DNA of 64,000 bases, from positions 20,336,001 to 20,400,000 of the forward strand of contig NC_071331.1 in assembly GCF_010183535.1 (NCBI RefSeq), in the 5' to 3' direction. The DNA is from Caenorhabditis remanei (taxonomy: Eukaryota; Nematoda; Chromadorea; Rhabditida; Rhabditidae). Positions 366 to 48,505 of the stretch are shown in pieces. The position numbers and the translations under genes were made by a program. The notes under the pieces are model-generated. The model had not been told where the DNA came from and searched no databases. It saw only the letters and a list, made by a program, of their open reading frames with translations. The number at the start of each line of letters is the position of its first letter. Within the stretch, counting starts at the first letter, position 1.

Positions 366-1606
366 TTAGAAATGAAAAATTTTTTGAAGCAGCAATTTTT
401 ATGTCAAAAAATAGAAGGACGCTTAGAAAAATGATACATATATGTGGCCTATGATAGCTAATTTCAAAAAAACGAGAATTAAAATTACATTGTCCAGTTA
501 ACAACACGTTTTGAAATTTTCTTGAAACAGAGAGTTTTTTTGAAAATTTGCTATTGGAAATATATATTTTCGCAGGGTAATTTGATAACATGGAGATCTA
601 GATTAGCGTTGCTTATTCAATTCTGAGAAATTAGAAATTGATAAATGAAAGCAAAGAACGGATAGATCCTGAAGAACTACTTTATACAAAACTTAATTTC
701 AGAAGTTTCTCATCTGAAACCGCAAATTTTTGAAAATTCTGTAAATTAAGCAAGTTTCAAAGAAATCTAATAAAAAACATTGGAATAGAATGTTAAAATA
801 AAAAACGTTCTGTAGCAGGCACATCTTAAATAAAATCATCCAAAATCTCATAATTTGAATTTATTTTAAAACAGAAATTTGTTTTCCTAAAAAATGAAAG
901 AGTTTGATTTTAAAGTGAATAGAATACATTAGCATTAAAATGCTATGAATAAAAATATAGCGAACGAGTGATTCGACATTTGAACAAGATTCTCAATTTT
1001 TGATTAGACATATTCATTTTTTGAAACAGCAACAAAAAATCTCTCATCCCTTTCTGTTCCCATCCAAAATGAGCAAGAGACATATGAATGATTCAGAAGA
1101 ACGCGACTAGGACTACTCTCTCTCTCCTCTCTGATCCCCCCTCCTTTCCCCAACGGATTACATCAAATCCCCTCGTTTCCCAACAAGCCCCGCCTCCTTT
1201 TAGGCGGGCTCAAAGAGCAATTCCCCTTTTTTGTGCGCTCATTTGAATAGAGATGGGATATGTTTGATGAATGGAATTGAAAAAAACGGGAAAAAATGTA
1301 ATGGAAAAAATGATGATGAGGGGTTGTTGCAGATAGAAAATTGAGGGAAAAGAAGTCAAATAATTGGGAAAAGAGAGAGAAGAAGTGCAAAGAAGGGATC
1401 ATTAGAAAAGGACGAAACCTTTGAAGAAAAGGATTCAGAGCTCTGAAAAAAAACATGTGATTTTTAAAGATGAGGGGTTTCTAGAAAAAGCAGATTTGAC
1501 TGAAATAACTTTTTCACTGTTTCAAACATTCATGTTTCATTATTTGAATTTTGGAACAGAAGTTTTGGATGGTAAGGGCAGAAGGAAATGAAATTTCGTG
1601 TTATAC

Positions 1607-1738
1607 TAGCTCACCACAGTTTATACAACTGCGCTCCACCAAAATTCCCTTGAAAAATGTCTCTTTTTCTCTGAGTCTCTCAATTTCGCAAACTACTTCC
1701 TTAGGTCTCGGTAGAGCGTGGTTGTAAGCAGCGTGCTA
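1607..1738. mobile_element. MITE of the CAACCGCGCTCTACC family
   Basis: Short palindromic element: the left end contains ACAACTGCGCTCCACC, the right end GGTAGAGCGTGGTTGTAAGC. The middle carries the family hallmarks TCTCTTTTTCTC and GTCTCTCAATTTCGCA. It is bounded by TAGC and GCTA. About ten full or partial copies occur in the window. An identical copy is at 14734-14865. Confidence 0.7.
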
Positions 1739-1902
1739 CTGTTCCAAAATACTTACTTTTTAGAGTTTTTTTCTCAAATTCATGATCATTTACTTTTTTA
1801 TGAAATAATACGACCCAGTGACGGAAAATATCTTGTTCCCATTTTAAAATTTTTTTGAAACCGTAACTTTTTTGGAAAACATTTCAAAAAGGTACATATT
1901 TG

Positions 1903-2016: not shown

Positions 2017-2149
2017 ATATGTATTCATGAATTGAAAGAGAAGTCGTATTATCGCTGTGATTGACATTGTTGATAATGTCTCTATTTTTAAAACAGAAAT
2101 TTTTATGTAAAATTTGAAAACCATAAAACGAAATAGACAAAGGATTTTC

Positions 2150-3981: not shown

Positions 3982-4117
3982 TAGCACGGCACGCTTCTCA
4001 CAACCGCGCTCTACCGGAATCGAAAAAACTGTGTACGAAATTGAGAGACGCAGGGAAAAGTTGACATCTTTCAAGCGCATTTCGATGGAGCATAGTTGCA
4101 AGAACTGTGCCAAGTTA
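3982..4117. mobile_element. MITE of the CAACCGCGCTCTACC family
   Basis: Left end TAGCACGGCACGCTTCTCAC then CAACCGCGCTCTACC; right end GATGGAGCATAGTTGCAAG then AACTGTGCC. The middle has ATTGAGAGACGCAG and ACATCTTTCAAG. An identical copy is at 17109-17244. Confidence 0.7.
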
Positions 4118-6343
4118 ATATAGTAAACTTTAATTCAACTTTTACAAATATAAGTTGTACTGTTTCAGTTAGAAACGGAAAATCTTCATGATAAGAAAAA
4201 AATGCTGGGCAAAATGCAGAAAAGAGTTGTCTGACGCAGGAGTCTTTTTCAGCAGAGTTCTGATTTTCTTTCAATAAATGGTAAGCATCATTGCAAATTT
4301 AGCAAATTTATGTTTGGGAAATTCAGAAACAGGATATTTATTATATGTCAACTAAAAGTTATATAATCTCAGTCCCCGATCTGGTGCACCTCAGGCGCTT
4401 TCAGTTACACTGCTGAAAAATGTTATTCACGGATTGAAAGAGAAGTCATTCTATCGTTGTGATTGACATTGTTGATAATTTCAAATTTTTTGAAACATAA
4501 ATTTTATGTGAAACTTAAAGACCAGCTTCTCATATCAGAAAATCAGAAATAATCTGTAAAGAATGCGTGCTAAAAACGGCGAATTTTGACTATTTTGAAA
4601 TCTCTTGGACTACCCGAATAAACTCTTCCGATTTACAAGCTTCTCTTTGAAACAGAAAAAATAAAATAAAATGTCTAAAGTTTTCCTTTGAATACACTCA
4701 TTGATGGAACTATTTTCATCACTGAATTGATATTTTGTTGAAACAGTATCTATGTTTTCAGATTACCACGTTTTCACAGTTTCAGAGAATTTACGACTTC
4801 ATAAGCCTGAAACTGGTTTTTGATTGTCTTCTCTTGTCTACAGCAAACATTCACTGTTTCAGAATCCGAAAAAGATTAAATTAGTTATGAAATTTTCACT
4901 GTCGAAAATATTGTTTTCAATTTTTTTTCTGTTTAGTGTTGGTAAAAGACATTCACTCGAAACAGTAAACATTTCCAAAAAGTTTTCAGTTTCTCTCAAA
5001 CTAGAAATTTCAAAAACTAATTAAAACTTGGCTAAGATGCCGGCGAAATCCAAATGTCAGACACGAAATCTCTCCTCCTTTCTCCTCTCTTTAAAAAGGC
5101 ATCCAGATTTCTAGTGTACACTGAATAAAGAATGAGATGGCAAGTTTTCTGCAAAAACAAACTTCTTTCTTATGAACACTCTAAATATTCTCCAGTTTCA
5201 ATGGCATATTTATTTTTCAGCTTCTAAGAAACTTTTTTGACTGGTCTAGACACTTTTTATTAGGGGAAATATGCCATGATTCCCAGTTAACTTGTGTGTC
5301 ACAAGTGTGATGTGATTCTTCTACAGAATCAGTGGGAGCATGCATATATTTATTGGCTGGCGCGCTTTTGGCGCGATTTCAGAAGATAACCTTCAATTTT
5401 AAAAATTAGGAACCAAACAAAATTTGTTGGACTTCAATTTTCTAAACTATTTTCTGTTTCGATTATAAATCAAATTAAGAAAATTTTGACCTTGTAATTA
5501 TTCAGCTAACAACTACCCATACTCCTTATTCCAGCTCTTCTTAAAGAATAGTTAGCACAGTAAAACTTTTCCATTTAAAAATAATTTCTGTTCCAACAAA
5601 CTATCAATAAATTCCACTAAAAGATAATGGCGGTTTCCTACCTATTTTGATTGAATCTGAAAAATACATCTGACTGGCGTGCCCTGCGCGTTTTTAAGCG
5701 AAGTTTAATCCTGCATTTCTTTTACTTGTTATTAAAATACGTACATGACTCAATTGTTTTCCAGATGCTTTGAAACAGTTACATTTTTATTTGAATTCGG
5801 TAAAAATGATTTCTGTTTCAACAAACATGAATAATTTTTCTGCAAAAACTCACTACTGCGACGGACTATTTTGACGAATAGCTTATCAGAGAGATCATTA
5901 TTCATAAACTTTGAAACTTCCCAACTTTCCAAAAAATTTCAGTTTCAGTTGAAAATTAACTAATTCTATTTGAAGTAATGCTCATACATCAATTAAAAAA
6001 AATGTAGCTGGCGCGCTTTCAAAAATGTTACAATTTCATGTTGTGAAGATGAGGTAATTGACGAAACAAAATTGAATTTTCGTATTATTTTTTCTGGAAA
6101 TTTTGAAACCATTTTCTTTTCGCTGTAAAATTCTTTTTTTTTCTCTTTCAATAATTACTGAAATAACTTTTGACTAGAAACCATGATAGTGTTTTTAAGG
6201 TTCGATGTCGAAAATCAAGTTCTCAAAAAGACACACCTGGTGCGACTTGGGCGCGTTTAATTTCAAATTATTTATTGTGAAGTAACTCAAAACTTTGTGA
6301 AATTATATTGTTGCTGTTTTATAGAAACAAAAATTTATGAACA

Positions 6344-6480
6344 GTACGGTTCCTTCAACCGCGCTCTACCGAAACCAAAGAAAATTGTGTGCGAAATTGA
6401 GAGACTCAGAGAAAAAGAGACATTTTTCAAGGGCATTTCGGTGGAGCGCCAAACAAAAAGCGAGAACTATGCCGAGCTAA
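6344..6480. mobile_element. MITE of the CAACCGCGCTCTACC family
   Basis: Contains CAACCGCGCTCTACCGAAAC, ATTGAGAGACTCAGAG, CATTTTTCAAGGGCATTTCG and GTGGAGCGCC, ending GCCGAGCTAA. The outermost left part is degenerate. An identical copy is at 19471-19607. Confidence 0.65.
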
Positions 6481-7427
6481 TCCAAAAAAACTTTGATTCG
6501 ACTTCTACAAATTAAATTTGTACTGTTTCAATTAAAAATTGAATATTTTCATATAAAGAAAAAAATGTTCATATTATCATTCAATGACTCAAAAAAATTC
6601 GTCTGGAAAACCATTTTTTTAAATATAAATCGTAAAAAATCCTCTGGCACACCGTTGACGCGTTTAGGCAGAGTTTTGCTTTTCTCACAATAACTGGCAA
6701 GCACTATTGTACTAAATTTTTATTTGAGAAATTCAGAAACAGGAGATTTTTTTATATGTCAACTGAAAATTATGTATATAATTTCAGCCAGGGGCACGGT
6801 TGCACCTTAGGTGCTTTCAGTTGCACATTTGAATTTTTAAGTAGAAAACTAACAAAATTTTGATTCTAGGGAAATTTTTTCGTAATAATTTGAAACAAAT
6901 TTTTTCTGTTTCGACGAAAAATCAAAAAGTTTACCTTCGAGAAAATAATGATTGGTGACAATTACTATTTTCAAAAACGAAGAGATGTAGCTGGTGCGCC
7001 TTTGGAGCGTAAAAATGAGGGATGTAATGGAAACTTTCGAATCACTGAATTCACATATGATAACATTTTTTGAATAGAAAATTGAAACAGTGAATTTTTT
7101 GCTCAGAATTTTTTACCGTTTCTGGTTGATGTGGTAATACGAGAACTCAAGTTTCTCCAATAATAATAATAAAATTCCAGCAAACCGGATGTGGTTTTTG
7201 TCTACAAAACTGGTCACTTTCTCTTCTCCCAAATGAAAAAAGTCAGAAACCAATAATGTGCATGATTCAGTTATCGAATCGACGTGTGAGTGAGAAAGAA
7301 GCCGAGAAAAACAACACTATTATTACATGCTGAAAACAATTAACTTGTTGGTTTTCTTTCTTAGTTTTTTGCTCACGGATTTTAGTTTTTTCTCGCTTTT
7401 TGTTCAGAGAACGGAGTTTGAGGAACA

Positions 7428-7553
7428 ATGGAATGTGATGGAGAGAGACTGGGAGAGGAGGAAATTTTGAAACTGAAGAAGACTGTTTCAGAGAGGTTTA
7501 GAAGGAAGTGGAGTAATTATTCAGGACATTATGAATTTTTGAACGACAGGTAG
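7428..7553 (+). CDS. Coding-like exon of unknown gene, repeat copy A
   Basis: ATG at 7428, preceded by GTTCAGAGAACGGAG, opens a 41-codon frame beginning MECDGERLGEEEILK and containing RKWSNYSGHYEFLNDR. It ends just where CGACAG|GTAGTC could act as a splice donor. A second coding-like stretch follows an ATTATCAG acceptor at 7782-7883 (33 codons, with PIRRRTRVLRKPVLYI), but its phase does not match the first donor. The composition looks protein-like, yet I recognise no family. One Ruby core (7483) lies within the frame, which argues for chance or overlapping use. Duplicated at 20555-20680. Confidence 0.25.
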   Translation: MECDGERLGEEEILKLKKTVSERFRRKWSNYSGHYEFLNDR

Positions 7554-8286
7554 TCATTTACCAAAAATTTGTATGGTCACAGTGTTAGTAAAGAAACAAT
7601 TAAACAAAAAAGTTTAAAATGAGAAATAGTGATAATGAACAGGAACAAGATGGGGAAGCTTATTTGTGATTTTTAGAAAAATTTACTGTTTCAAAAAATC
7701 AAAAAATATAAAATACCAATTTTTATAATGTTTCTCACAAAACACTTGTTGTTACTGTTTCCTAAAAATATTGATTATCAGTCATTTTTCGTAAATGAAC
7801 AAGCCAACCAACCTATCCGAAGACGAACACGAGTACTCCGGAAGCCTGTACTGTATATTCTTAAGCGAAATAATTGTTTCTAGAATTTTTCAAACCATAA
7901 TTGGAGAGCACATACATACTGATGCTATTATTTTTTGAAAGCATTGAAATGTTTGCTGAAACAGTAAAGTTTTCGAATTTCCCATTGAATTTTTGTTAGG
8001 TTCGATAAAGCACATTAACATAGTCAAAAAGGTAAAAAATTATCAAACAATTCCATGTATACCGAAAATAGTTTTCCGAAAGTTTTGAAACAATTAAGCA
8101 AGGAAAAGTGGAGATTCGAATTTCATGTAAAAAACATTTAAATGTTGCTGAAAATGAACATTTAAATGCTGCTGAAACAGTGAAGATTTTGAAATTTCAG
8201 TGACGCGTTCCTCTAATAAAAACAATGTTTCATGAGTTTCTGTTGAACAATAAGTGTTTGATAATTTACTTATAATTACGGCTGTC

Positions 8287-8440
8287 AGAAGTCGCGGCCG
8301 GCCGGCCCCGGCTTTTTCCTGAAAATCTCAAACAGCCGCGACTTTCTAGAGTTTCAACTAAAAACATGACTTTATATACTTTTGACAATTTGGTACCAGT
8401 CTGACCAACAGGGTTTGACCCCCACTGGTGCCAAAACTAT
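8287..8440. repeat. Two short GC-rich inverted repeats
   Basis: AGTCGCGGC (8289) pairs with GCCGCGACT (8335) around a GGCCGGCCGGCC core. Immediately downstream TTTGGTACCAGT (8389) pairs with ACTGGTGCCAAAA (8423). Both look like remnants of small foldback transposons. Identical copies at 21416-21567. Confidence 0.45.
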
Positions 8441-9145
8441 TTTACGGCCGTACGACAGTTTTGCTTGCAATTTCAGGATGCAACTACCATTAAAAACTTA
8501 TTCAGAGACCACTTCTGTTTCCGACTTTTGTGTCTACACGCTCATTCAGTTACAAGAGATCGCATTCGTCATTGTGTCACCATTTCTAGACACTCCTTTT
8601 GAACAAAATTTGAAAAAAAACTTGTCAAATAAGAGCTAGAAAAAAACCTAGATCATGAATAATTCAGTTCAAAAACTTCAAAAGAGTTGCGGCAAAAAAT
8701 AACACATTTTTGGTCAGAATGAGCAGAAATCTAGATTTCGAGTGACTTCTCAATTTCGAGAAAGTTGAGTTTTTTGTTTCAAGATTTTTAGAAAACTAGT
8801 TTGAGTTCATATGGAATTGTTTCAATGTTGGATACTTTAGGCCATTTTGATTATGTAACTGCGATCAAACAAGTTCGAGAGCTAAAAAACCATTTCAAAG
8901 AAAAAGTTTCAAAATTTTTACTGTTTCAGCAAAATTCGAATATTGTTAAGAATAATATAGTTTCAGTAAGACTATTGCTTTAAAAACTCCAAACTCTCTA
9001 AACATAAAATTCGAATCACCATTTTCCCTTATTTCAATGTTTCAGGACTTTTTTCAGGTAATTATTCTGGGTAAATATGGAATTGCTAGATTTTGAAATT
9101 TTTACGTCGGTCTATACAATGACAGAGATTGCATAAAAACCTCAC

Positions 9146-11610
9146 TCACCGACAACTTTTACCGCGTGGTGAGACCAGAAGATTAGTGTAAAAGTAGATC
9201 ATAGAGAATTGAGTCAAATAAATAAAGTATAAGAAGGCATCGAGATACAAATAGACATGTGTAGACGTTCTCAAACTGAATATCTCATCACACAACTGTA
9301 ATGTGTAGTATGGAGCATTGAGGGACACTTGAATAGTCGCCATCATCAAACATCGCCTCATTGCTTGATGTCTCCGTCGATTCGATTGTTTTATCGATTG
9401 AGATGACTGGATTTTGACGGTTTCATTCACTTGGAGCAGGACACTGTGTTCCGTTCGAATGTTTTCAGCCGACATTACCACGAAACTGAAATTAACTTCT
9501 GATTCATCATGAGAATATTGAGTAGCTGCTGTGAGCCTTGAAAAGGAACTTTGGAAACGGGAGAAAATTGTTTCAAAGCGTAAAGCATTGAAGACTATTT
9601 TTCCATTCATAAGCTAAAGAGTGATTGAATTTTTAATTTTTATAAAAATTTCTATATTTCATTGAAACAGTAAATTGTTTCAATTAAGCTTATAATAACC
9701 AGTGGTTGGCTGCCATGATTAAAATTGATAAGTTTATCACTAAAAACTGATTATAGTTCTGTTAGAACCCTTTTCAGATGACAAAATCCAGTTTCAAGAA
9801 TCTACTATAATAATTTAATTACACTGTGCAATTTGAAATTTTCATATTCTAGATAATTCTTACAGTTTCAGAATTTTCTTATAGATTCTACAAACTTCTA
9901 AAAGTTCAATAGAAGTCTTGCAGTTACTCCGATTTCTTATAACAATTACTGTACTCACCTCGAATTAGCCGATTGATACAGTACTGCAATATCCATGACA
10001 ATAGTTAGAAGAAATGGGAATGCGTAGGTGATGAATGCTTCTCCGATTGCAAGGATACGGTAGCCGAAGTCACTGAAATAACTGTGTTTTTATTTCGTTT
10101 GACAGTTTTCTCACTGTTCCAAGATTTCCTAATTATCAAATTGTTTTGATAAGTTATGATCTAGTTGGAAGTACGATTTTGTTTGAAAATAGTTAATTCA
10201 AAATGATGTTTTACACTCCAGAAATATTCTGTTTCATAAATAGAAGATAGTTGTTTCAATTTGTTGTGAATTTGTTTGTAAGAGAAATTTAATCAAAGTT
10301 TCGAACCCTCTTTGCAACACTTTTTCTTTTTCCAATATTTGATTAATCGTTTTAAAATGGTTTTAAAATGGCAATCAATTAGAGCACCCATATAATAATG
10401 TTTTAAAGAAAATTAATTTTAATAAAATTTTGAAAAACCCCCATTGTTCTATTTGTTTTTTTTTTCACTGTTTCAATAACTATTGTTCTCGAATCGGTCA
10501 GAAGCAATGAGCATATGTACTTCAAAAACCTATTTCCAACAAATGACAAAAAAAACAGTTCTACATGGGATGTTATAGAGATCTTTCAGAAAATTCCTGT
10601 TTCAAAAAACTCAATTAGTTACAAAAATGTAATTTCCATTGTTTCCGGAAATAAAAATTTTCAATTAAATTCAGTTCTTAGCCTAATTATGTTTTTTATT
10701 AATTGTTCATTAGTTTTTCTCCTATATATGTAACTCTGATCGGACAAATAACTTAATTTAGTAACAAAGACACTTTACCATTGTTAAATTTTTAATACAT
10801 TTTCTGTTTCAAAAATTCTGAATTAATGATCCAAGCAGAGTATTTTAATGAGCCAAGCAATAATTCGACATCTTATTTTAACAATTTTAGGTACCTACGT
10901 ATATTTATTAGACACAATTTTCTCCAAAAGCTTACCTCATAATATCAACATCCCGTTCACAAACACCAATCAGTTGATCATCGTCAGTTAACATTGTGAC
11001 TTCTTCAATGAATATCAATGACCAACTCTGCAAGAATATCTTTGTACTCTTCTTCTTTTTATCCCATCTTCATCCTCTTCATACCTGCGTCAGAAGTGCA
11101 AAACAAGCGGTCGCAAGAATCAGTTTCTTCCCAGACCTCATAAATCCAAAGAATCCATGAGAAGACCGTTTCATCGGGTAAAAAAGAATGAAAAATCTCT
11201 GAGAGAAGAGACATAACCAGATCCAATTTATGAAACACGCGGCGCTGTTCGAGAAGAAAAGTTCCAGTTTGCAGACGAGCGTTCCTGGAAAAAAATATAA
11301 GATTGAAAACTACTTTAGCTGTTTTTAAATTTATGAAAATTTGAAACGGGAGCTTTAATTTTAATACTTCTTGCTTTGACTCACCTTTAAACGAAAAGTT
11401 AAAAATATCGAATAGAATAATGAGAAGAGTGATAACATTAGCAGCAATGATACTTATCAAGAATACGAAATAATTGGATCTCTTCCTCTTAATCAAATTG
11501 AAAAATGCTTTGGCGACTAGAAGTAAAGAGATCAAGACGGTGCAGAGGATGATCCAGAATTGACATTTCGATATGAACATCCATAGTTTCATGTGCTCCG
11601 AACCATTCAT
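9146..11610 (-). CDS. Rhodopsin-like G protein-coupled receptor, 5 exons
   Basis: Exons on the minus strand: 11610-11385, 11284-11085, 11027-10936, 10072-9959 and 9485-9146. All junctions are GT-AG and in phase; the product is 323 residues. Seven hydrophobic segments are visible, starting near residues 14, 46, 82, 126, 178, 235 and 272. Cys80 at the start of TM3 and Cys165 in the second extracellular loop can form the class A disulphide. The DRY position reads SQRF (103-106) and TM6 has the pattern CLMMATIQVSLNAPYY, as in nematode peptide-type receptors. TTTCCAG ends four bases before the ATG, consistent with an SL trans-splice acceptor or a missed 5' exon. The stop overlaps a good donor (TCG|GTGAGT), so the C-terminus might extend. 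I cannot name the subfamily; the ligand is unknown. It is the only intact receptor gene in the Ruby-motif domain. Confidence 0.8.
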
Positions 11611-12914
11611 TTTCCTGGAAATTTGAAATTATCAACAAAGTGAGAATATTTTAAAGAACAACACGAGTAGAAAACGGAATCACCAATTTCAAAATGAGGG
11701 CGGGGTATCTGGACCTTTTGAAACAGTATTTAATTTTTTCAGGGGTTGCAGTTCATAAGATTCAAATTATCGCGTTTATTTGAAAAACTGTTTACCTAGA
11801 ATTCATCGTTTGAAGATCACTATATAATTCATTTCAAGTTTCGATTCATTGGGAATTTCAAAATATAGACTCGTTGAAACTGTATATTTGTTCTTGAAGG
11901 TTACTGTTTCAAGCGACTGATTACTATAATCAAATGTGGTTGCCAATGGACATTCACTTCACAAAAAAGTTATTTCACAAAAAGCAATAGTTATTCACAA
12001 AACTGGAATTCCTATTGTTTCTGGAAATTAAAATGCTCTTGAATGAATGTTGAATTGAATTCTATAATAAAGTTAGTTCCGATTTATTGGGAATTTCAAA
12101 ATATGGACTCGTTGAAACTGTAAATTTTTCATGAAGGTTACTGTTTCAAGCGACTGACTACTGTAATCAAATGTGGTTGCTATAGTTCGAGTAATCTCAC
12201 TTCCTTCATATTCTGATAATTTTAGAGGTGGTAAACATGTGTTATTGAGTACAAGAAGTGCAGAAATTAAAAAACCATATGCTACTATTCGCAAATCGGG
12301 AATTGGTGTATCTAGAGTTTTTGAAACGGAATTTAATTTTTGGCTCCGCGGCAATTCGCAACTGCGACATTCCGCAACTGCGACATTTCGCAACTCACGT
12401 AGGTTTCGCAACTGCGACACTTCGCAACTGCGACATTTCGCAGCTAGCCATTTCGCAACTACGACATTCCGCAACTACGACATTTCGCAACCACGACGTT
12501 TCGCAACCACACCGCATTTGCATATTTAGGTCAGTTGAAAATGTTGAAACCGAAGGGTCTGGGAACATATTTGAAAACATTAAATAGGAGAAAAAGTTAT
12601 CTGACCCATTTTTAGACAAAACTAGGTAAAAATATTGCTAGTTCTATGGTTGCGAAACGTCGTAGTTGCGGAATGTCGCAGTTGCGAAACGAACAGTTGC
12701 GAAATGTCGCAGTTGCGGAATGTCGCAGTTGCGGAATGTCGCAGTTGCGAATTGTCGCGGAGCCTAATTTTTAGGGGGGAGCAGTTCATAAGCTTAAAAT
12801 AATTAAGATTATTTAAAAAACTTTTAGTTTGAAATTTATCACATGAAGAACACCGATAAATCAAATATAGCTCCGATTTATTGGAATTATTACAATTTCG
12901 ACTCTTTGAAACAG
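9663..12914. promoter_or_regulatory. Ruby-motif field 2 (single-copy spacer)
   Basis: Exact plus-strand cores start at 10229, 10468, 10597, 10804, 11904 and 12141; minus-strand cores at 9663, 11719 and 12907. Three plus cores (10468, 10597, 10804) lie in one intron of the minus-strand GPCR gene and one (10229) in the same intron nearer its 3' end. This nesting of piRNA-type promoters inside introns, on the strand opposite the host gene, is as expected for chromosome IV-type clusters. Confidence 0.8.
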
Positions 12915-12990
12915 TAAATTTGTCTTTGAAGATTATTGTTTTATCGAACTGTTGATTGTAATCAAATATGGTTTCTATAGTTCATGCGTT
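11697..12990. repeat. Three diverged tandem blocks between GPCR and repeat B
   Basis: Blocks at about 11697-11945, 12070-12185 and 12300-12980 share TTCAAAATATAGACTCGTTG-type and AAGCGACTGA(T/C)TACT sequence followed by AATCAAATRTGGTTGC. Block 1 contains TTTAATTTTTTCAGGGG, the unoccupied equivalent of the site where block 3 carries the MITE at 12342-12764. Minor coding potential only. Confidence 0.65.
12342..12764. mobile_element. Palindromic hAT-type MITE built from a 16-bp satellite
   Basis: Terminal inverted repeats begin GGCTCCGCGGCAATTCGC and end GCGAATTGTCGCGGAGCC. They are flanked by a perfect 8-bp target duplication, TAATTTTT, at 12334-12341 and 12765-12772; eight bases is the hAT-superfamily signature. 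Each arm is a small array of GCAACTGCGACATTTC units, in opposite orientation left and right of a spacer at about 12515-12640. Open frames across the arrays (RNCDISQLRHFA-like repeats) are by-products of the 16-bp unit. A related fragment is at 35163-35225. Confidence 0.85.
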
Positions 12991-13128
12991 GTTTTTGGAG
13001 CCCTCATTCATATTATTCTGGATGTAAAAAATGACTGAATTAACTTTCCGTTGGTTTATTGCTTTTGAGCTGAATATGTTGTCTGAACCACATTATTGGA
13101 AAATTTAAATAAGGTTCTGAGCAGCTTA

Positions 13129-13492
13129 CTAGGGAAGGCCCTCGACTCGGTCTGGAGTTATGGGTCGTGACCCATATCTTTGAAAGCTGAGAAAACGCCG
13201 ATTCCAAATATATATTCATTTTTTGCCCTCGAGGCCTGGAATTCGAGAAAAACAAGATCAAAGTTTGTAAAAATGACAAATTATTGCCTTTCTGACACGC
13301 GAAAAACGTTTTTAAATTTTTTTGCGATAAAAAGGCAATAATTTGTTAGTTGTCCAAACTTTGACCTCATTTTTCTCAAAAACCAGGCCTCGAGGGCAAA
13401 CTGAATATATAATTGGAATCAGCGTTTTTTCAGCTTTTCAATGATATAGGTCTCGATCCATAACTCCAGACCGAGTCCATGACCTTCCCTTG
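13129..13492. mobile_element. Palindromic MITE with C(T/A)AGGGAAGG ends, copy B
   Basis: Identical to the element at 2-365. Here the left flank is visible: TTA at 13126-13128 and TTA at 13493-13495 flank the element, consistent with a 3-bp target-site duplication. A 3-bp T-N-A duplication is typical of PIF/Harbinger or CACTA-type transposition, but the assignment is inference. Confidence 0.8.
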
Positions 13493-15276
13493 TTAGAAAT
13501 GAAAAATTTTTTGAAGCAGCAATTTTTATGTCAAAAAATAGAAGGACGCTTAGAAAAATGATACATATATGTGGCCTATGATAGCTAATTTCAAAAAAAC
13601 GAGAATTAAAATTACATTGTCCAGTTAACAACACGTTTTGAAATTTTCTTGAAACAGAGAGTTTTTTTGAAAATTTGCTATTGGAAATATATATTTTCGC
13701 AGGGTAATTTGATAACATGGAGATCTAGATTAGCGTTGCTTATTCAATTCTGAGAAATTAGAAATTGATAAATGAAAGCAAAGAACGGATAGATCCTGAA
13801 GAACTACTTTATACAAAACTTAATTTCAGAAGTTTCTCATCTGAAACCGCAAATTTTTGAAAATTCTGTAAATTAAGCAAGTTTCAAAGAAATCTAATAA
13901 AAAACATTGGAATAGAATGTTAAAATAAAAAACGTTCTGTAGCAGGCACATCTTAAATAAAATCATCCAAAATCTCATAATTTGAATTTATTTTAAAACA
14001 GAAATTTGTTTTCCTAAAAAATGAAAGAGTTTGATTTTAAAGTGAATAGAATACATTAGCATTAAAATGCTATGAATAAAAATATAGCGAACGAGTGATT
14101 CGACATTTGAACAAGATTCTCAATTTTTGATTAGACATATTCATTTTTTGAAACAGCAACAAAAAATCTCTCATCCCTTTCTGTTCCCATCCAAAATGAG
14201 CAAGAGACATATGAATGATTCAGAAGAACGCGACTAGGACTACTCTCTCTCTCCTCTCTGATCCCCCCTCCTTTCCCCAACGGATTACATCAAATCCCCT
14301 CGTTTCCCAACAAGCCCCGCCTCCTTTTAGGCGGGCTCAAAGAGCAATTCCCCTTTTTTGTGCGCTCATTTGAATAGAGATGGGATATGTTTGATGAATG
14401 GAATTGAAAAAAACGGGAAAAAATGTAATGGAAAAAATGATGATGAGGGGTTGTTGCAGATAGAAAATTGAGGGAAAAGAAGTCAAATAATTGGGAAAAG
14501 AGAGAGAAGAAGTGCAAAGAAGGGATCATTAGAAAAGGACGAAACCTTTGAAGAAAAGGATTCAGAGCTCTGAAAAAAAACATGTGATTTTTAAAGATGA
14601 GGGGTTTCTAGAAAAAGCAGATTTGACTGAAATAACTTTTTCACTGTTTCAAACATTCATGTTTCATTATTTGAATTTTGGAACAGAAGTTTTGGATGGT
14701 AAGGGCAGAAGGAAATGAAATTTCGTGTTATACTAGCTCACCACAGTTTATACAACTGCGCTCCACCAAAATTCCCTTGAAAAATGTCTCTTTTTCTCTG
14801 AGTCTCTCAATTTCGCAAACTACTTCCTTAGGTCTCGGTAGAGCGTGGTTGTAAGCAGCGTGCTACTGTTCCAAAATACTTACTTTTTAGAGTTTTTTTC
14901 TCAAATTCATGATCATTTACTTTTTTATGAAATAATACGACCCAGTGACGGAAAATATCTTGTTCCCATTTTAAAATTTTTTTGAAACCGTAACTTTTTT
15001 GGAAAACATTTCAAAAAGGTACATATTTGTGCATAAATATTCTTACAACCGCGTTCCACCTAACTCCTTTGCAAAATTTCTCTTTTCTCTTAATTTCTCT
15101 TTTAGTTTCGATAGAGCGCGATTGTGTGAAGAGTGATGTGCTAATATGTATTCATGAATTGAAAGAGAAGTCGTATTATCGCTGTGATTGACATTGTTGA
15201 TAATGTCTCTATTTTTAAAACAGAAATTTTTATGTAAAATTTGAAAACCATAAAACGAAATAGACAAAGGATTTTC

Positions 15277-15989
15277 AGTGTCTGAAACGTTTTACTGTTT
15301 AAAAAAAATGAAAACAAAATTCATTAAGAACATGTAGATATAAGAGATGGTGAATTTCAAACAAAAATTCCCACAAATTAGATAAAGGATTTACAGTGTA
15401 TCTCCTAGATTACTAGACTCAATATTTTGAATATAATCTACACACATTTTTTAAATATGTCCATTTTGTTCATCGCATCAAAATGTACTTTTGATTAAAA
15501 AAACAGTGTTTCAGTGAATGGCTTCTAGAATGCACCGGATCTGTATTCTCTTTGAAAAAATTGAATAGCCACCATGAGACCTTTTTGTTTTCCTTGGAAA
15601 TAATTTTCTTTTTTCAAATAAATTTTACATGACGCTGGCAATATTTTGGGAATACGTATTGTACTTCCTCAGAAAACTTCATATTCATTTCGAAGGAAAA
15701 CAAAAAGATCTCATCGTGGCTATGTAAATAAGTACTCTTATTCACTAAAAAACTGTTTTTTACAGACTATCGAAAGTACATTTTGATGCGATAAACAAAA
15801 GGGACATATTTAAAAGATGTGTGTAGATTATATTCAAAATATTCAGTCTAGTAATCTAGGAGACACAATGTAAATCCGTTATCTAATTTGTGGGGAATTT
15901 TTTTTTTGAAATTCACAATCTCTTATATCTACGTGTTCTTAACAAATTTTGTTTTCATTTATTTAAAAACAGTAAAACGTTTCAAAAAA
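15277..15989. repeat. 0.7-kb palindrome, copy B
   Basis: Same palindrome as 2150-2862, shifted by 13127. An assembler can easily collapse or misjoin such arms, so the two copies deserve attention when the 9-kb duplication is checked. Confidence 0.75.
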
Positions 15990-18900
15990 TTTCAGTTTTA
16001 CTAAAACTATCTCAAAAATCTGTCAGTCATTCTTTCTCCTCTCCTTAAAAAGGCATCCAGATTTTTAGTGTACACTGAATAAAGAATGAGATGACAAGTT
16101 TTCTGCAAAAACAAATCCTCCGGTTTCATTTGACATATTTCTTTTTCAGCTTCTAAGAAACTTTTTTGACTGGTCTAGACACTTTTTATTAGAGGCAATA
16201 TTCCATGATTTCCAGTTAACTTGAGTGACACAAGTGTGATGTGATTCTTCTCCAGAATCAGTTGGAACATGCATATATTTATTGGCTGGTGCGCTTTTGG
16301 CGCGATGTCAGAAGATAACCATCAATTTTAAAAGTTAAGAACAAAACAAAATTTGTTGGACTTCAATTTTCTAAGCTATTACTATTTTCTGTTTCGATTA
16401 TAAATCAAATTTTGAAAATTTTGACCTTGTAATTATTCAGCTAACAAATACCCATACTCCTTATTCCAGCTTTTCTTAAGGAATAGTTAGCACAGTAAAA
16501 CTTCTCCATTAAAAAAATAATTTCTGTTCCAGCAAACTATGAAAAATTTCGCTAATAAGATAATGTCGCTTTCAATGGTAAACTTTATGGTCCTTTGAAA
16601 TATTCACCTGACTGGCGTGCCTTGAGCTAAGCAAAGTTTGATGTTATACATATTTCGTCTGCTTTCTATCAAATTACTTACAATTTTATTTATTTACTTG
16701 AAAAACAATTACCGAATAGCGGAAACTAAAAATCAAATACAACCGATAACTCAATTGTTTTCCAGAAGTTTTGAAACACGGTACTTTTTTTTAATACGGT
16801 AAAAATGATTTCTGTTTTAACAAACTATGAATAATTTTTCTGCAAAAAACTCACTACGGAGTATTTTGAATTTGGAACGTTCATCAGAGAGAAAATTATT
16901 CATAAACTTTTGTTGTTTTTTCGGGAAATTTTGAAACCGTTTTCTTTTTGTTCTAGTATTCAATTCCTTCTGTTTCAATAATTACAGAAATAATTTGACT
17001 AGAAAGCATGATAGTGTTTCTATGTTTAAAACAACTATGTTTCTAAAAAGACACACCTGGTGCGACTTGGGCGCGTTTAATTTCAAATTATTTATGGCAA
17101 TCAGATATTAGCACGGCACGCTTCTCACAACCGCGCTCTACCGGAATCGAAAAAACTGTGTACGAAATTGAGAGACGCAGGGAAAAGTTGACATCTTTCA
17201 AGCGCATTTCGATGGAGCATAGTTGCAAGAACTGTGCCAAGTTAATATAGTAAACTTTAATTCAACTTTTACAAATATAAGTTGTACTGTTTCAGTTAGA
17301 AACGGAAAATCTTCATGATAAGAAAAAAATGCTGGGCAAAATGCAGAAAAGAGTTGTCTGACGCAGGAGTCTTTTTCAGCAGAGTTCTGATTTTCTTTCA
17401 ATAAATGGTAAGCATCATTGCAAATTTAGCAAATTTATGTTTGGGAAATTCAGAAACAGGATATTTATTATATGTCAACTAAAAGTTATATAATCTCAGT
17501 CCCCGATCTGGTGCACCTCAGGCGCTTTCAGTTACACTGCTGAAAAATGTTATTCACGGATTGAAAGAGAAGTCATTCTATCGTTGTGATTGACATTGTT
17601 GATAATTTCAAATTTTTTGAAACATAAATTTTATGTGAAACTTAAAGACCAGCTTCTCATATCAGAAAATCAGAAATAATCTGTAAAGAATGCGTGCTAA
17701 AAACGGCGAATTTTGACTATTTTGAAATCTCTTGGACTACCCGAATAAACTCTTCCGATTTACAAGCTTCTCTTTGAAACAGAAAAAATAAAATAAAATG
17801 TCTAAAGTTTTCCTTTGAATACACTCATTGATGGAACTATTTTCATCACTGAATTGATATTTTGTTGAAACAGTATCTATGTTTTCAGATTACCACGTTT
17901 TCACAGTTTCAGAGAATTTACGACTTCATAAGCCTGAAACTGGTTTTTGATTGTCTTCTCTTGTCTACAGCAAACATTCACTGTTTCAGAATCCGAAAAA
18001 GATTAAATTAGTTATGAAATTTTCACTGTCGAAAATATTGTTTTCAATTTTTTTTCTGTTTAGTGTTGGTAAAAGACATTCACTCGAAACAGTAAACATT
18101 TCCAAAAAGTTTTCAGTTTCTCTCAAACTAGAAATTTCAAAAACTAATTAAAACTTGGCTAAGATGCCGGCGAAATCCAAATGTCAGACACGAAATCTCT
18201 CCTCCTTTCTCCTCTCTTTAAAAAGGCATCCAGATTTCTAGTGTACACTGAATAAAGAATGAGATGGCAAGTTTTCTGCAAAAACAAACTTCTTTCTTAT
18301 GAACACTCTAAATATTCTCCAGTTTCAATGGCATATTTATTTTTCAGCTTCTAAGAAACTTTTTTGACTGGTCTAGACACTTTTTATTAGGGGAAATATG
18401 CCATGATTCCCAGTTAACTTGTGTGTCACAAGTGTGATGTGATTCTTCTACAGAATCAGTGGGAGCATGCATATATTTATTGGCTGGCGCGCTTTTGGCG
18501 CGATTTCAGAAGATAACCTTCAATTTTAAAAATTAGGAACCAAACAAAATTTGTTGGACTTCAATTTTCTAAACTATTTTCTGTTTCGATTATAAATCAA
18601 ATTAAGAAAATTTTGACCTTGTAATTATTCAGCTAACAACTACCCATACTCCTTATTCCAGCTCTTCTTAAAGAATAGTTAGCACAGTAAAACTTTTCCA
18701 TTTAAAAATAATTTCTGTTCCAACAAACTATCAATAAATTCCACTAAAAGATAATGGCGGTTTCCTACCTATTTTGATTGAATCTGAAAAATACATCTGA
18801 CTGGCGTGCCCTGCGCGTTTTTAAGCGAAGTTTAATCCTGCATTTCTTTTACTTGTTATTAAAATACGTACATGACTCAATTGTTTTCCAGATGCTTTGA

Positions 18901-20554: not shown

Positions 20555-20680
20555 ATGGAATGTGATGGAGAGAGACTGGGAGAGGAGGAAATTTTGAAAC
20601 TGAAGAAGACTGTTTCAGAGAGGTTTAGAAGGAAGTGGAGTAATTATTCAGGACATTATGAATTTTTGAACGACAGGTAG
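20555..20680 (+). CDS. Coding-like exon of unknown gene, repeat copy B
   Basis: Identical to 7428-7553 and therefore supported by the same weak evidence: an in-frame ATG, protein-like composition and a possible donor. The downstream coding-like stretch is at 20909-21010. Unknown family; may be a gene relic carried along by the duplication. Confidence 0.25.
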   Translation: MECDGERLGEEEILKLKKTVSERFRRKWSNYSGHYEFLNDR

Positions 20681-29085: not shown

Positions 29086-29087
29086 AA

Positions 29088-31460: not shown

Positions 31461-31479
31461 CTCTTCGGATACTTGGAAG

Positions 31480-44365: not shown

Positions 44366-44875
44366 CTAAAAAGGAGTTTGGTTGAGACAGAAGTTGAGGT
44401 TTTTATTCTTTCAAAACACGAAATTTTATTAGGACGAATTTTTTTTAAATTTCATAACTCATGAGCAAATATTACAGGGTTTATTAGCCTATCAAAGTTT
44501 ATTTTCTCTTAAACAAAACATAAAGTCGTTGAAACAGTGAATATTTTTCAAAGTATTACTTTTTTTGAATTTTGAAAATAAGTCAATCCGATTAAGACAT
44601 CACACAACTTCTTTTTTAAAAAGCAAACTTCAAAAGACAACTTCATATATGTATACATATGTTTTCTTCTAACACACCGATTCCTGGAACCAGTCTAACA
44701 TTTTGCACTCCCCTAACAAGATCTGTTGATTAGAGAAGGTTTCCGATTCAATTAGTGTTCTCTTGAACGAGTGAAATCTCGAGAACTTTTTGTGAATCTT
44801 TCGGGAGATTGAAGATTTCATATGTACGTAAACTTTTTGAGACTAAACACCAAAATATTGTTCAGAGTGATTTGA

Positions 44876-47800
44876 TGACGATTCTAAACAGACATGAAAA
44901 ATGAATTGATTTAAAAAAAAGAATTTCACATTCAAAAAAATTTGAAACTGCAAAATTTTAGTTTGGAACAGATACGGAAATGGGTAAGGCTTCGACATTA
45001 GCACTGCTCTTTTTTAATCTGAAACACCACTAACTTTGAGTGTTTCCAAAATAACTTTTAGTATTAGCACGACACAGCTCTTACAACAGCGCTCTACCGA
45101 AATCAAAGAAAATTTGTGCAAAATTGAGAGGCGCAGAGATAAAGAGACATTTTTCAAGAGGAATATCGATGGAGCGCAGTTGTAAGAACTGTGCCGAGCG
45201 AATAGATAAATGACAAATAACCTACATATATTTTCAGCTCCGATTCTTGAGGAAGTATCAAAAAATAAAGATAAGGAGAATTTCAGAAACTTGAAACAGA
45301 ACATTTTTCAAGTTTTTTTTTTTTTAGAATGTGGAAAACAAGACTTTCAGGAATAAGTAGAATTCAAGTATGTTCATATGACTTTTGCAAGAAGGCTTCA
45401 AATTTGTTCTGTCTCTTGCACAAGCCTTACCAAATATTAGGTTAGATCATTTACGTTACGGTATTTTTGATCATTCACCGATTCGTTGAGGTATTTTGAA
45501 TAAATGGATCCAATAAAAAGAAATGAACAATCTCAAGAAAAATGTTCGAAAGACTTCTGCCTCATCTGAAACAGAAAATATTGCTCTCTTATAACCTTCC
45601 AGTCTGATTTTCTTTACCACCGTAGGTTTCATTTTATCGATTATCAAATCTAAATAACACGATGTGCTTCTGCAACCTATGTGTGAGTTATTTCCTAGTT
45701 AGCATGAAAGATTGTTTAAGCAAAAATGTTAGTGCTTGTAAAAAGATTGTTACACTCTACAACAAATTTCTGTTTCATTTGAAACAGATATTTTTTCACA
45801 ACTCTAATCATACACTCATCGTTTAGCATTCCGTTGGCGGTTTTGAAGAATTCATGGAAAATGAGAAAAACGTGGAGAAGTAAAAATAGCCGGTGAAAAA
45901 ATTGAAATGTTCCAGCAGTTTCCTGAATTCCCTGATCTACTACCACTAGGAAAATTATGAAAATGTTATGTTTCGTTTGAAACAGAAAACAATTTTTGGT
46001 TCTAATTTTTTAGTGATTTCGATTTGTCCCGAATTAAAAAAGTAACCCTCTCCATTCTTCTAGGAAACTACAAAAAGGAAAATGCATTATGTTTAAGAAG
46101 AGAAGGTTGCAGACATCTGTGTTTTCTTCTGTAGATAACATTTCCATGGCAGTTAGGGATTGATGGAAAAATAGAAAAACGTACAAAAAAGAGATACAAA
46201 AAAAAGTCCGCGATAGAATTGAAATGACCAGTCAACTTTGTAGAAGTACTGACTTACTACCACAAAAAACATTATGACAGCTTTCTGTTCCGTTTGAAAC
46301 AGAAAATATTTAATGACTCCTCCATTTAGATAAATGAAAATTAATCCTATCCATTCTTGTAGGAAACTACAAAAGGGAAAATTCATTATGTTCTGAAAGT
46401 TTATTTGAAACCAGTATAGTTTCGAAATGTAGAAAAATATTTCATATCGTCTGAAACATTCAACTATTCTGACGGCTCAGATGCACAAGAATCTACTAAA
46501 TCAATATAGAAATACGAGTGTCTTATTACAACAGAATTCGCTTGAGAAGCAACATTTATTTTCATTTTTAATCGGAGTAAGCAAACCATGAAAATTGCTA
46601 ATATCTATTCAGCAGTTCAAAGATTTCTGTTTCAATGGAAACCAAAAGATACTCACATTTTTTATATTTCAGTAAACTTTCGTTATGTGGTTTTAAATTT
46701 TGCAGTTTTTATGTTTCTTGATAAACCTTAACAACTATCAGATTTGTGAAGTCCCAAACCAGAACCATTACTTCAAGAAAAGTGTTCGAAAAACTTCTGT
46801 TTTATCTGGAACAGAAAATATTGTTGTCTTCTAAACTGTTCTTCCTCATCGTATGTTTTTAATACAGTATTAAATCCAAATCTTCAAAAAAATACCGAAG
46901 CAAAAACGTTACTTTCTACAACAAATTTCTGTTTCACCTGAAACAGATTATTTTTCACAAATCTAATTATACACTAACTATACATCTGTGTTTTCTTCCG
47001 TAGATAACATTTCCATGGCGGTTAGGAGAAGTACTGGAGAAGTTAGGAGAAGTATCACAACAAGAATTATGAAAGCTTTCTGTTTCGTTTAAAACAGAAA
47101 ATATTTTTTGGTTCCAATTTTTTTGATGACTCTTTTATTTCTTTAATTAAAAAATTAATCCTTTCCATTCTTCTAGAAAACTACAAAAGGGAAAATTCAT
47201 TGTGTTGTGAAAGCTACATTAATAACCAGCATAATTTTGAAATGGAGAAAAATATATCATGTCGATTGAAACGTTCAACTATTCTGTCGGCTTAGATGCA
47301 CAAAATCTACAAAATCGGTCAAGAAATTCAAAAGTCTGGACGTTCAACAGAATTTTCTGGAGGAGCAACATTTATTTTTATGTTTAATTGGAGTTAGCAA
47401 ACCATGAAAATTACTGATATCTATTCAGCATTTTCTATCAAACTGGGCAACATTTCAAATTTCTGTTTCAATGGAAACCAAAAGATTCTTACATTTTATA
47501 TATTTTAGTAAGAGTGGTTTAAAATGTTCCGAGTCAGTATTGAAGTTTGTTATGTTTCTTGCTTAAACTTTTAAGGTTAAAAATAACTATCAGATTAGTG
47601 CGGAAACCCAATATATTGCCGAATCACTACTTCAAGAGAAATGTTCGAAAAACTTCTGTTTTATCTGAAACAGAAAATATTATTGTCTTATAAACTGTTC
47701 TTTCTCATCGTATGTTTTTAATACAGTATTAAATCCAAATTAAAAAAAATACCGATGCAAAAAAGTTACTTTCTATGAGAAGTTTCTGTTACATCCGAAA

Positions 47801-48505
47801 CAGATTATTTTTCAAAACTCTAATTATACACTATACTCTTAGTATTTCTTGTAGTTAGCATTTCAAAAAAGTCGGTGCTATAATTGAAATGACCGGTCAA
47901 CTTTGTGTAACTTTCTTGAGATGAAAAGATCTGATTTCAAAACGACAGTTATTTATGCATCGTGAAAAACAGAGATACATGCCAAGTAATGTGAGGGCAA
48001 CCAATTTTTAGGTTTCCGTAAAATTTGCTTCTATTATTTAATAGCGTGTTTATTTGGGTAAAAGTCTTGTGACGGGAACTTGAAAAAATAATCATCCGTT
48101 CAAAAATGTAATGGCAACTGAATGGCAACTGAAAAACTTTTAAATTTTCTGATTCATTTGAAACGGCAAGTGTTTTTAATTTTAAACGTTTATTAGGGCG
48201 CTTGGGTGAAAGTAAATGCAGAGATCGTTATTTCTTGTATTGAAGGAATAATAAACTGATTATAAGTTATGGTGAAAAATTTAAACTAGGATGGTTTTGT
48301 CAAACTAGGGGGTCCAGGTGGAGCATCATCAACATTCTCCGTTTTATTTACAATCTATACCACTCTGGACAGGATAGCAGTCTTTTCATGTTCTGGAGTT
48401 CTCTAAGTGGAATTTTTTTAGTGCTTCAGAAAATTTTTGAAAAATATTTTGTTTCATCTGAAACAGAAATCTTTTTTACTGTATCAGATACTATTCCAGG
48501 TAGAG
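44876..48505. repeat. Array of diverged repeated blocks with paired Ruby motifs
   Basis: Apart from the MITE at 45063-45205, this interval is made of diverged copies of the 41-42.6-kb blocks. Examples: TCCATTCTT(C/G)TAGGAAACTAC-type sequence at 46046 and 46350; GATTTCTGTTTCAATGGAAA at 41469, 46623 and 47459. No splice-consistent gene was found. Confidence 0.6.
45063..45205. mobile_element. MITE of the CAACCGCGCTCTACC family, best-preserved copy
   Basis: The left end reads TTAGCACGACACAGCTCTTA then CAACAGCGCTCTACCG. The middle carries AATTGAGAGGCGCAGAG and ACATTTTTCAAGAGG. The right end is GATGGAGCGCAGTTGTAAG then AACTGTGCCGAGCGAA. Nearly complete inverted ends, about 143 bp. Confidence 0.75.

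Follow-up and report, generated by a model that had tools for sequence, protein, structure and literature searches.

A probable type I piRNA cluster edge on the right arm of Caenorhabditis remanei chromosome IV, where copied cassettes appear to keep the promoter core and change the guide

Type I 21U-RNAs are 21-nt, 5'-U piRNAs bound by PRG-1, and their loci are bound by PRDE-1/SNPC-4/TOFU-4/5 in H3K27me3 chromatin; type II loci are without the Ruby motif and lie at ordinary gene promoters. Male-type 21U-RNAs of C. elegans have C at core position 1, are enriched in the male germline and depend on SNPC-1.3. Amniote pachytene piRNA loci are long precursor loci. The C. elegans type I clusters lie on chromosome IV at 4.75-7.5 and 13.5-17.5 Mb, and both are described in PMC9683057 as syntenic with the left-end cluster of C. 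briggsae. The same source places a C. briggsae right-arm cluster at 13.0-15.0 Mb of chromosome IV, apart from the larger left cluster; its expression is reported to be raised at low temperature (PMC9641977), and the two clusters are described as responding to temperature reciprocally. In C. elegans, changing the upstream A/T sequence is reported to have a modest effect and changing the downstream sequence a large one (PMC11822377). C. remanei itself is reported to produce 21U-RNAs (PMC6468775). How new nematode piRNA genes originate, and what maintains upwards of 20,000 of them as their sequences change, is stated to be an open question in PMC9683057.

The window analyzed here is a 64,000-nucleotide stretch of C. 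remanei PX506 (chromosome IV, 20,336,001-20,400,000, right arm). Judging by its sequence, it is very probably the right-hand edge of a right-arm type I piRNA cluster in which cassettes duplicate, the core tends to stay and the guide changes. A sequence-only reading had counted about 100 Ruby cores, with none in the last 15.5 kb, and had taken them for a type I cluster, an interpretation that the analysis supports. The count stood: the exact octamer (CTGTTTCA/TGAAACAG, both strands) occurs 102 times, 101 of them within 523-48466. The claimed absence did not, since one core lies at 61056 on the minus strand, the only one in the final 15.5 kb. That reading had put the chance expectation at about two and proposed a comparison with shuffled sequence; 100 dinucleotide-preserving shuffles of the window gave a higher mean of 4.60 (sd 2.21, max 11), and none reached 102, so the enrichment is clear. 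Its suggestion that almost the whole non-coding part of the window may be a piRNA factory was too broad, as the final 15.5 kb lies outside the cluster. The reversed control octamer ACTTTGTC was found in none of the sixteen 4-kb bins of the window, and the whole genome has 19,000 occurrences of the octamer vs 6,781 of the control. The 102 cores represent 85 distinct sequence contexts, 84 of them in 523-48466 and the 85th being the outlier at 61056; the other 17 are exact copies made by tandem duplication. The cluster continues leftward, where the two neighboring 10-kb stretches contain 24 and 25 cores, and it ends sharply on the right, where both such stretches contain 0. The order of strands is near random overall (31 runs vs 37.4 expected, p 0.08), and the longest same-strand run, of 15 cores, was equaled or exceeded in a fraction of 0.0026 of 5000 strand shuffles (75 sites).

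523-48466, both strands: part of a predicted type I piRNA (21U-RNA) cluster with 101 exact Ruby cores, extending left beyond the window
25698-32079, minus strand: 15 consecutive minus-strand cores, the longest same-strand run

Over the contiguous cluster, CTGTTTCA occurs at 123 distinct sites (3.8 expected) vs at most 22 for any single one-mismatch version. The ATG, GTG and TTG versions together occur 39 times (20.8 expected), so that C at core position 1, as in male-type loci, predominates. Some one-mismatch cores are nevertheless in excess (CAGTTTCA 21 vs 3.8 expected, CTGTTTTA 18 vs 5.0, CTGTTCCA 13 vs 1.5), which means that the exact octamer undercounts or that some cores have decayed.

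The spacing from core to predicted 21U start is also that of type I loci. The sequence-only reading had named a lack of YRNT enrichment at the right distance as the result that would count against it; 95 of the 123 distinct cores have a YRNT whose T lies 45-47 nt downstream, vs a mean of 31.2 in 16 control windows and 30.2 at 71 other offsets (sd 6.3, max 42). Among the sequence compared, 61 of the 123 cores have a detectable paralog and 62 do not, and 51 of these 62 have the YRNT (control 15.7); since paralog-free cores show the same enrichment, repeats do not account for it. Within the window, the top offset is T at +46 from the C of the core (37 of 85 contexts, offset mean 7.3), and a YRNT T lies at +44 to +49 in 76 of 85 contexts vs 31-42 across seven control windows; 6 of 76 deduplicated window cores are without one. 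A T at +46 puts the core G 44 nt upstream of it, which PMC3597512 gives as the most frequent position in C. elegans. Between paralogs the T at +46 is no better conserved than the flanks (9 of 51 differ), and neighboring Ts can serve. The AT-rich pausing signal expected after the 21U is weak here: GC falls from 0.322 in the 21U to 0.282 over the following 9 nt (95 sites).

Type II loci were ruled out by the Ruby motif at these loci. None of the 15 open frames of at least 75 codons tested inside the cluster matched Pfam; the window gave no Rfam match at the gathering threshold and no tRNA. At the level of protein family, the genome has 67 exon-level Piwi-domain matches and nine SNAPC1-family matches at four places. 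A 10-bp A/T periodicity (PATC) was considered as a mark of the cluster and ruled out, as the signal is inconsistent among stretches: period-10 power is about twofold at 22.3-48.6 kb (where it is the best period), 1.1 at 1-13.1 kb and 2.8 in a quiet stretch (L019), so it does not distinguish the cluster.

Motif, spacing, YRNT, density, boundary, promoter form, duplication, core conservation and 21U divergence can all be read from the sequence; beyond these, we infer that the cluster is transcribed and processed, that its products load on PRG-1, and that it depends on ATTF-6 and is biased by germline sex. Each piRNA gene would be autonomous and span about 80 bp; SNAPc/USTC (in C. elegans SNPC-4, PRDE-1 and TOFU-4/5) would bind CTGTTTCA, and the upstream A-tract and T-tract and the downstream A-rich stretch would form an A/T element like the ATTF-6-linked one of C. 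elegans. Pol II would start at a YR about 44 bp downstream, and the resulting capped precursor, about 28 nt long, would be trimmed to a 21U-RNA starting at the T and then loaded on PRG-1. Local segmental and tandem duplication would multiply the genes by copying the entire promoter-plus-guide cassette, after which the core would tend to persist while the guide changes.

The behavior of core and guide was read from paralogous segments, many of which exist besides a 13.1-kb tandem copy, at up to 97% identity. An attempt to pair cores by gapped similarity was dropped because most pairs looked unrelated in the AT-rich DNA, and the final pairing is BLAST-based. The paralog survey covered 115 core occurrences, 68 of whose partners have an exact core; damaged cores were also seen. 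Core mismatches between paralogs are about a third of the flank level (71/920 vs 751/3090, not deduplicated). For divergence, 73 of 86 pairs were kept after removal of the near-identical L026/L050 pairs and of any pair retaining fewer than 6 of the 8 core bases, and 16 of 23 paralog groups had enough data. Divergence over the predicted 21U is about 1.5 times that of the flanks, while the core is conserved: in the BLAST alignments the mismatch rate is 0.274 in the 21U vs 0.183 in the flanks, a ratio of 1.50 (1.32-1.74, 16 groups), and 0 of 5000 group-coherent draws were as high. Flank rates corrected for base composition predict 162.9 mismatches in the 21U, and 244 were observed. Three genes display the pattern.

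41473-41539, plus strand: predicted piRNA gene (core 41473-41480, 21U 41519-41539), a paralog of the next two
46627-46693, plus strand: predicted piRNA gene (core 46627-46634, 21U 46673-46693)
47463-47529, plus strand: predicted piRNA gene (core 47463-47470, 21U 47509-47529)

The genes at 46627 and 47463 are nearly identical in core and spacer (3 of 30 spacer bases differ) and differ at 11 of 20 aligned bases in the 21U body, apparently through an indel after the first 21U bases; the predicted 21U at 41473 is close to that at 47463. The kind of change depends on the alignment. Upon realignment of 43 pairs in 15 groups, BLAST-like scoring gave a 21U excess of 1.39 (1.20-1.74) in substitutions and 2.10 (1.41-2.98) in gap openings, gap-permissive scoring 1.06 (0.83-1.24) and 2.13 (1.79-2.92), and very permissive scoring 1.12 (0.88-1.37) and 1.80 (1.53-2.34). 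An excess of substitution as such was dropped when it shrank to 1.06; because it depends on the scoring, the claim is one of excess divergence, and indels may carry most of it.

Whether this excess is mutational, for example from indels left by paused or terminating Pol II, instead of selective seems to be an even call. The mutational account draws on the gap-permissive result, in which gap openings and not substitutions are in excess, and on the overlap of the divergent interval with the transcribed stretch. The excess is also the same in exact-core pairs (98/355) and in pairs whose partner core is damaged (146/534), a result that fits mutation and, taken by itself, does not separate it from selection. 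Against it, the excess is gone by positions 67-72, where a small sample is at flank level (50/264), before the expected end of the precursor.

The largest copy is a head-to-tail tandem duplication with a unit of 13,127 bp and 26 cores per unit.

1-9091, plus strand: tandem duplication copy 1, starting outside the window at window position -4044
9083-22218, plus strand: tandem duplication copy 2

Comparison of the copies over 13,136 bases gave 2 mismatches, both located where the unit ends overlap by 9 bases, and such near-identity could mean that the duplication is an assembly error. This seems unlikely, since the short, imperfect 9-base overlap at the junction fits a real duplication, and probing gave no further copy on another contig: a 601-bp interior probe matched the two tandem copies and nothing else in the genome. 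Three findings go beyond the sequence-only reading: this duplication, the promoter form of the right arm and the extra divergence over the 21U.

Right-arm promoters favor a CTG core with an A/T block (AAAnnTTTaCTGTTTCAaa), and were compared with 105 kb of sequence sampled from left/central chromosome IV. In the contiguous cluster, 61 of the 123 cores have both the A-block and the T-block (11.3 when slid upstream), and the A fraction of 0.63-0.68 at -9 to -7 vs 0.34-0.46 at -12 to -10 sets the block off from its neighbors. The full right-arm form occurs 67 times in the genome, 65 of them on the right arm of chromosome IV, and the CTG core with the block is nearly confined to 19.3-20.4 and 23.2-23.95 Mb of that chromosome.

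7677-7694, plus strand: full right-arm form AAAWWTTTACTGTTTCAA, by motif search, with a tandem copy at 20804-20821
26507-26524, minus strand: full right-arm form, by motif search
29528-29545, minus strand: full right-arm form, by motif search
30062-30079, minus strand: full right-arm form, by motif search
42112-42129, both strands: palindromic double core CTGTTTCAnnTGAAACAG, a possible divergent promoter, with others at 45770-45787 and 46929-46946

The double core CTGTTTCAnnTGAAACAG is found at four genomic places, all on the chromosome IV right arm and three in the window (reversed control 1). The left/central cluster uses CTGTTTCA and CAGTTTCA, and also CGG and CCG. It has T.T at +17/+19 more often (49/137 vs 29/173 on the right arm, p 2e-4) and is less dense, with eight of ten stretches at 5-10 exact cores per 10 kb and the other two at 0 and 1. 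The A/T-rich core flanks expected of type I loci are present, and at CTG cores they are stronger here than at left/central CTG cores. It is rather improbable that there is no separate right-arm promoter class, that is, that block and second core base covary everywhere and the regions differ in AT content or mixture. Right-arm GC is lower (0.325 vs 0.353), and the block occurs at CAG/CCG/CGG cores both left/central (26/70, slid control 5.5) and on the right arm (20/57, 5.1), which rules out the block as exclusive to the right arm. Yet at CTG cores the block is found in 91 of 173 on the right arm (control 15.9) vs 7 of 67 left/central (6.0), and CTG makes up 130 of 158 YRNT-bearing CNGTTTCA cores on the right arm vs 49 of 100 left/central (p 3.5e-8); the sharp edge of the block and the 65 of 67 full forms also argue for a distinct class. 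It is CTG and block together, not the block alone, that are almost restricted to the right arm. No earlier description of this promoter form, or of divergence centered on the 21U, was found for C. remanei in a partial literature search.

A dead or silent cluster, with motifs but no transcription, is very unlikely: damaged cores among the surveyed paralogs do look like decay, but the low core mismatch and the YRNT retained at most cores indicate that the genes were maintained until recently. Scarcely credible is an octamer carried in a dispersed or tandem repeat (transposon, MITE or satellite) without piRNA function, for while the 13.1-kb copy, the paralogous segments and the 61 cores with paralogs attest to local duplication, the 62 paralog-free cores have the same YRNT and A/T-block enrichment, which refutes the idea for singletons, the 85 contexts are without a strong consensus outside the motif, A/T flanks and start site, and the cores, which occur on both strands, are better conserved than the surrounding DNA. 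A transposon or dispersed repeat family was ruled out because 62 of 123 cores have no detected paralog and the flanks show no strong consensus.

A type I cluster that copies its cassettes offers a sequence-level answer, which can be tested, to how piRNA genes arise and are kept up: cassette duplication, core retention and guide change. The promoter difference between the chromosome IV clusters is a candidate cis-element for cluster-specific, temperature-dependent expression of the C. briggsae type, and right-arm vs left/central promoters provide a naturally occurring comparison in which to study the A/T element and ATTF-6. More tentatively, the right arm might be a separately wired battery with its own grammar, AAAnnTTTaCTGTTTCAaa, regulable apart from the left/central cluster, as the right-arm cluster of C. 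briggsae is by temperature. It might at the same time be an engine of birth and rewriting: duplications of between about 0.2 kb and 13 kb would copy cassettes, the promoter core would be retained, and guide sequences would change more quickly than the surrounding DNA, largely by indels falling within the guide, through diversifying selection or targeted mutation.

With the C. elegans type I clusters, as described in PMC3597512, the C. remanei cluster shares the CTGTTTCA core, G at -44 from the 21U T, the A/T-rich spacer and autonomous units, and it shares the chromosome IV location (PMC9683057). Unlike them, it favors CTG with the A-block and T-block, and it shows runs of cores biased to one strand as well as a tandem copy of recent origin. 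It resembles the C. briggsae right-arm cluster, for which PMC9683057 describes a position on the chromosome IV right arm, the Ruby motif and strong A/T-rich motifs upstream and downstream. The left/central cluster of C. remanei (about 1.5-13 Mb) has the Ruby core and YRNT at +45 to +47 as on the right arm, but a mixed second core base, more T.T at +17/+19, block-free CTG cores and lower density. Amniote pachytene piRNA loci, described in PMC9925758 as structural-variation hotspots, are similar in their fast guide divergence and in the duplication that feeds turnover; unlike in those loci, each 21-nt guide in C. remanei is served by a promoter of its own, which allows divergence to be located base by base. 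Worm piRNA clusters of this kind are already known, and it seems to be its own promoter form, together with cassette copying and guide change, that sets the C. remanei cluster apart.

Exact CTGTTTCA/TGAAACAG octamers, the Ruby core of the C. elegans type I piRNA (21U-RNA) promoter, were found 102 times in the window, against 4.6 times in shuffled sequence (sd 2.2, max 11). The sequence-only reading had placed about 100 of them in the first 48.5 kb and proposed the shuffling comparison; 101 lie within 523-48466 and the excess stood, while its chance expectation of about two was too low and the last 15.5 kb, described as empty, holds one core at 61056. The reversed octamer, used as a control, was absent from all sixteen 4-kb bins of the window, and across the 130.47-Mb genome (186 contigs) the octamer occurs 19,000 times and its reversal 6,781 times. 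The first 50 kb have a GC of 0.29-0.36, the rest 0.38-0.46.

Start sites were evaluated on the contiguous cluster minus the second copy of a tandem duplication, 123 cores. At 95 of them a YRNT places its T at +45, +46 or +47, counted from the C of the core, against a mean of 31.2 in 16 control windows (71 other offsets: mean 30.2, sd 6.3, max 42), which is the enrichment that the earlier reading had required at its predicted distance. Among cores with no detected paralog the count is 51/62 (control 15.7), so copying is not the source of the signal. With the T at its commonest place, +46, the core G falls at -44, the same as in C. elegans (PMC3597512); AT-richness downstream of the 21U is only slight. 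C. elegans piRNA precursors are 28-nt long, and carrying that length over, those of C. remanei would be too (PMC7917550). C. remanei was previously reported to produce 21U-RNAs (PMC6468775). The octamer excess and YRNT spacing identify 523-48466 as part of a predicted type I piRNA gene cluster, an already known kind of locus, and the first reading was correct in kind.

Part of the cluster is a 13,127-bp unit repeated head to tail, with 26 cores per unit:

Window -4044..9091: tandem unit copy 1, head to tail with copy 2
Window 9083..22218: tandem unit copy 2, head to tail with copy 1

The copies have two differences in 13,136 compared bases, both at unit ends. An interior probe found exactly two copies, and a junction probe found one junction match plus its two halves. 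Judged from the sequence, this copying appears recent, and it goes beyond the first reading. Older paralogous segments are numerous (84 alignments 100 bp or longer, averaging 78% identity and reaching 97%). Two stretches of the same cluster 30 kb apart, C4:20150001-20153000 and C4:20120001-20123000 (C4 being chromosome IV), each with several cores, are 98% alike over 1473 and 753 bp, and are another recent duplication. There is also an inverted match (82%) between window 4-369 and 13125-13490; position 1 has its tandem copy at 13128, so the stretch at 4-369 would be near-palindromic with itself, perhaps an old foldback element.

Outside the cluster edge, window 50417-63924 holds a duplicated gene module:

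50764-52380: long open frame, WSN domain
54639-55094: protein-tyrosine-phosphatase match
59768-62197: long open frame, WSN domain
63472-63924: protein-tyrosine-phosphatase match

Between two related genes there, at 57259-59052, sits a minisatellite in which a 72-bp unit recurs 25 times, the copies being about 96% alike and open in several frames.

The paralogous segments were used to compare the parts of the piRNA cassette. With pairs counted from both sides, 71/920 aligned core bases differ, about 0.20-0.24 of flank bases, and 436/1342 bases of the 21U body. Counting every pair a single time and discarding those nearly identical or with fewer than 6 of 8 core bases left 73 of the 86 pairs, with data in 16 groups; 61 of the 73 belong to the single contiguous cluster at the window. 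In this set 21U divergence was 0.275 versus 0.184 for flanks (ratio 1.50, 1.32-1.74 over groups) and exceeded the flanks in 13/16 groups. The 20-nt windows from 45, 50 and 55 are the highest in the entire profile (0.256-0.271), none of 5000 null draws of other windows reached the 21U value, and 244 mismatches were seen versus 163 predicted from composition-corrected flank rates. Divergence in the seed (67/315) is below that at guide positions 9-21 (177/574), and the excess is gone at 67-72 (50/264). With the core low and the 21U above its flanks, the predicted guide is the fast-changing part of the cassette, a further step past the first reading that draws on sequence comparison. A gap-permissive alignment gave a 2.1-fold excess of gap openings and no excess substitution in the 21U. 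This is explained by cases like the 46627/47463 pair, where core and spacer are nearly identical and an apparent indel just inside the guide changes most of it; indels may be the main route of guide change. Either selection or local mutation may lie behind the guide excess.

The right arm of chromosome IV begins at 17.1 Mb in C. remanei PX506 (PMC10461856, Table 1), so the window, at C4:20,336,001-20,400,000, belongs to it. Twenty 10-kb stretches of the chromosome were surveyed: next to the window, 24 and 25 cores were counted in the pair on its left and none in the pair on its right; eight at 1.5-12 Mb hold 5-10 apiece, six at 15-22.5 Mb hold 0-2, and those at 0.5 Mb (L005) and 13.5 Mb (L014) hold 0 and 1. 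Samples of 3 kb from the cluster's surroundings gave 3-8 cores each at 19.40, 20.10, 20.12, 20.15, 20.25 and 20.28 Mb, none at 20.20, 20.27, 20.29 and 20.30 Mb, none in four at 19.80-20.05 Mb, and 0-2 in six at 20.45-20.80 Mb. The other five chromosomes gave one core in total over seven such samples. This patchiness fits the "clusters-of-clusters" of C. elegans (PMC6436959).

Double cores that form a palindrome around a 2-bp gap lie at 42112-42129, 45770-45787, 46929-46946 and C4:19398810-19398827, four genome-wide, all in this right arm (reversed control 1); each could drive two opposite-direction piRNAs from one site. Chromosome V carries two genes of the SNAPC1 family that score almost alike, on opposite strands and 46 kb apart (C5:10239642-10239953 and C5:10286087-10286398), with further matches at two places on chromosome II. 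In C. elegans, SNPC-1.3, a piRNA factor of males, is among the SNAPC1 variants.

Around the window cores, positions -9..-7 are mostly A (0.68-0.72), positions -4..-2 mostly T (0.53-0.79) and positions +8/+9 mostly A again (0.61). The upstream A-block and T-block occur together at 74/145 right-arm versus 7/57 left/central exact cores (p 1.8e-7), and in the largest sets at 91/173 (15.9 when slid) versus 7/67 (6.0). A pair of Ts at +17 and +19 is commoner in the left/central set (49/137 versus 29/173, p 2e-4). Among YRNT-bearing CNGTTTCA cores, CTG makes up 130/158 in the right arm versus 49/100 in the left/central set (p 3.5e-8), which accepts other second bases: CAGTTTCA has YRNT in 32/40 left/central cores (control 9.2) versus 11/28 right-arm cores (control 6.4). 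The A/T block as such was ruled out as exclusive to the right arm, since it accompanies 26/70 left/central cores whose second base is A, C or G (control 5.5), and likewise 20/57 such right-arm cores (control 5.1); within the left/central set it is associated with second bases other than T (p 0.0003). It is the joint form, CTG core plus A/T block, that apparently marks the right arm, which again extends the first reading. Genome-wide, AAAWWTTTACTGTTTCAA, the strict form, has 67 matches and its reversal none: on chromosome IV, 16 fall within 19.3-20.4 Mb, 49 within 23.18-23.95 Mb and one at 2.08 Mb, and one is on chromosome II; with CAG for CTG there are 7. A stretch chosen for its AAAWWTTTACTGTTTCAA matches (L053, C4:23655001-23658500) holds 18 cores in 3.5 kb, denser than the window. 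Sixteen of these succeed one another on the same strand over 2.6 kb, at intervals of about 70 bp and more, and the stretch has a repeat spaced 215 bp (88% identity, cores in both copies).

Core position 1 is mostly C, which in C. elegans is associated with male-germline expression (PMC3597512, PMC7884074); the right-arm piRNAs are predicted to be expressed there. When A/T positions downstream of one C. elegans core were changed to G/C, its piRNA fell more than 21-fold; upstream changes had a modest effect only, and ATTF-6 is proposed to act at the A/T element by the core (PMC11822377). The C. briggsae right-arm cluster is reported to rise in expression at low temperature, and the left cluster to fall at high temperature (PMC9641977). 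That right-arm cluster, at 13-15 Mb of chromosome IV, is described as flanking its Ruby motif with strong A/T motifs (PMC9683057), and resembles the C. remanei cluster in arm and A/T-flanked core.
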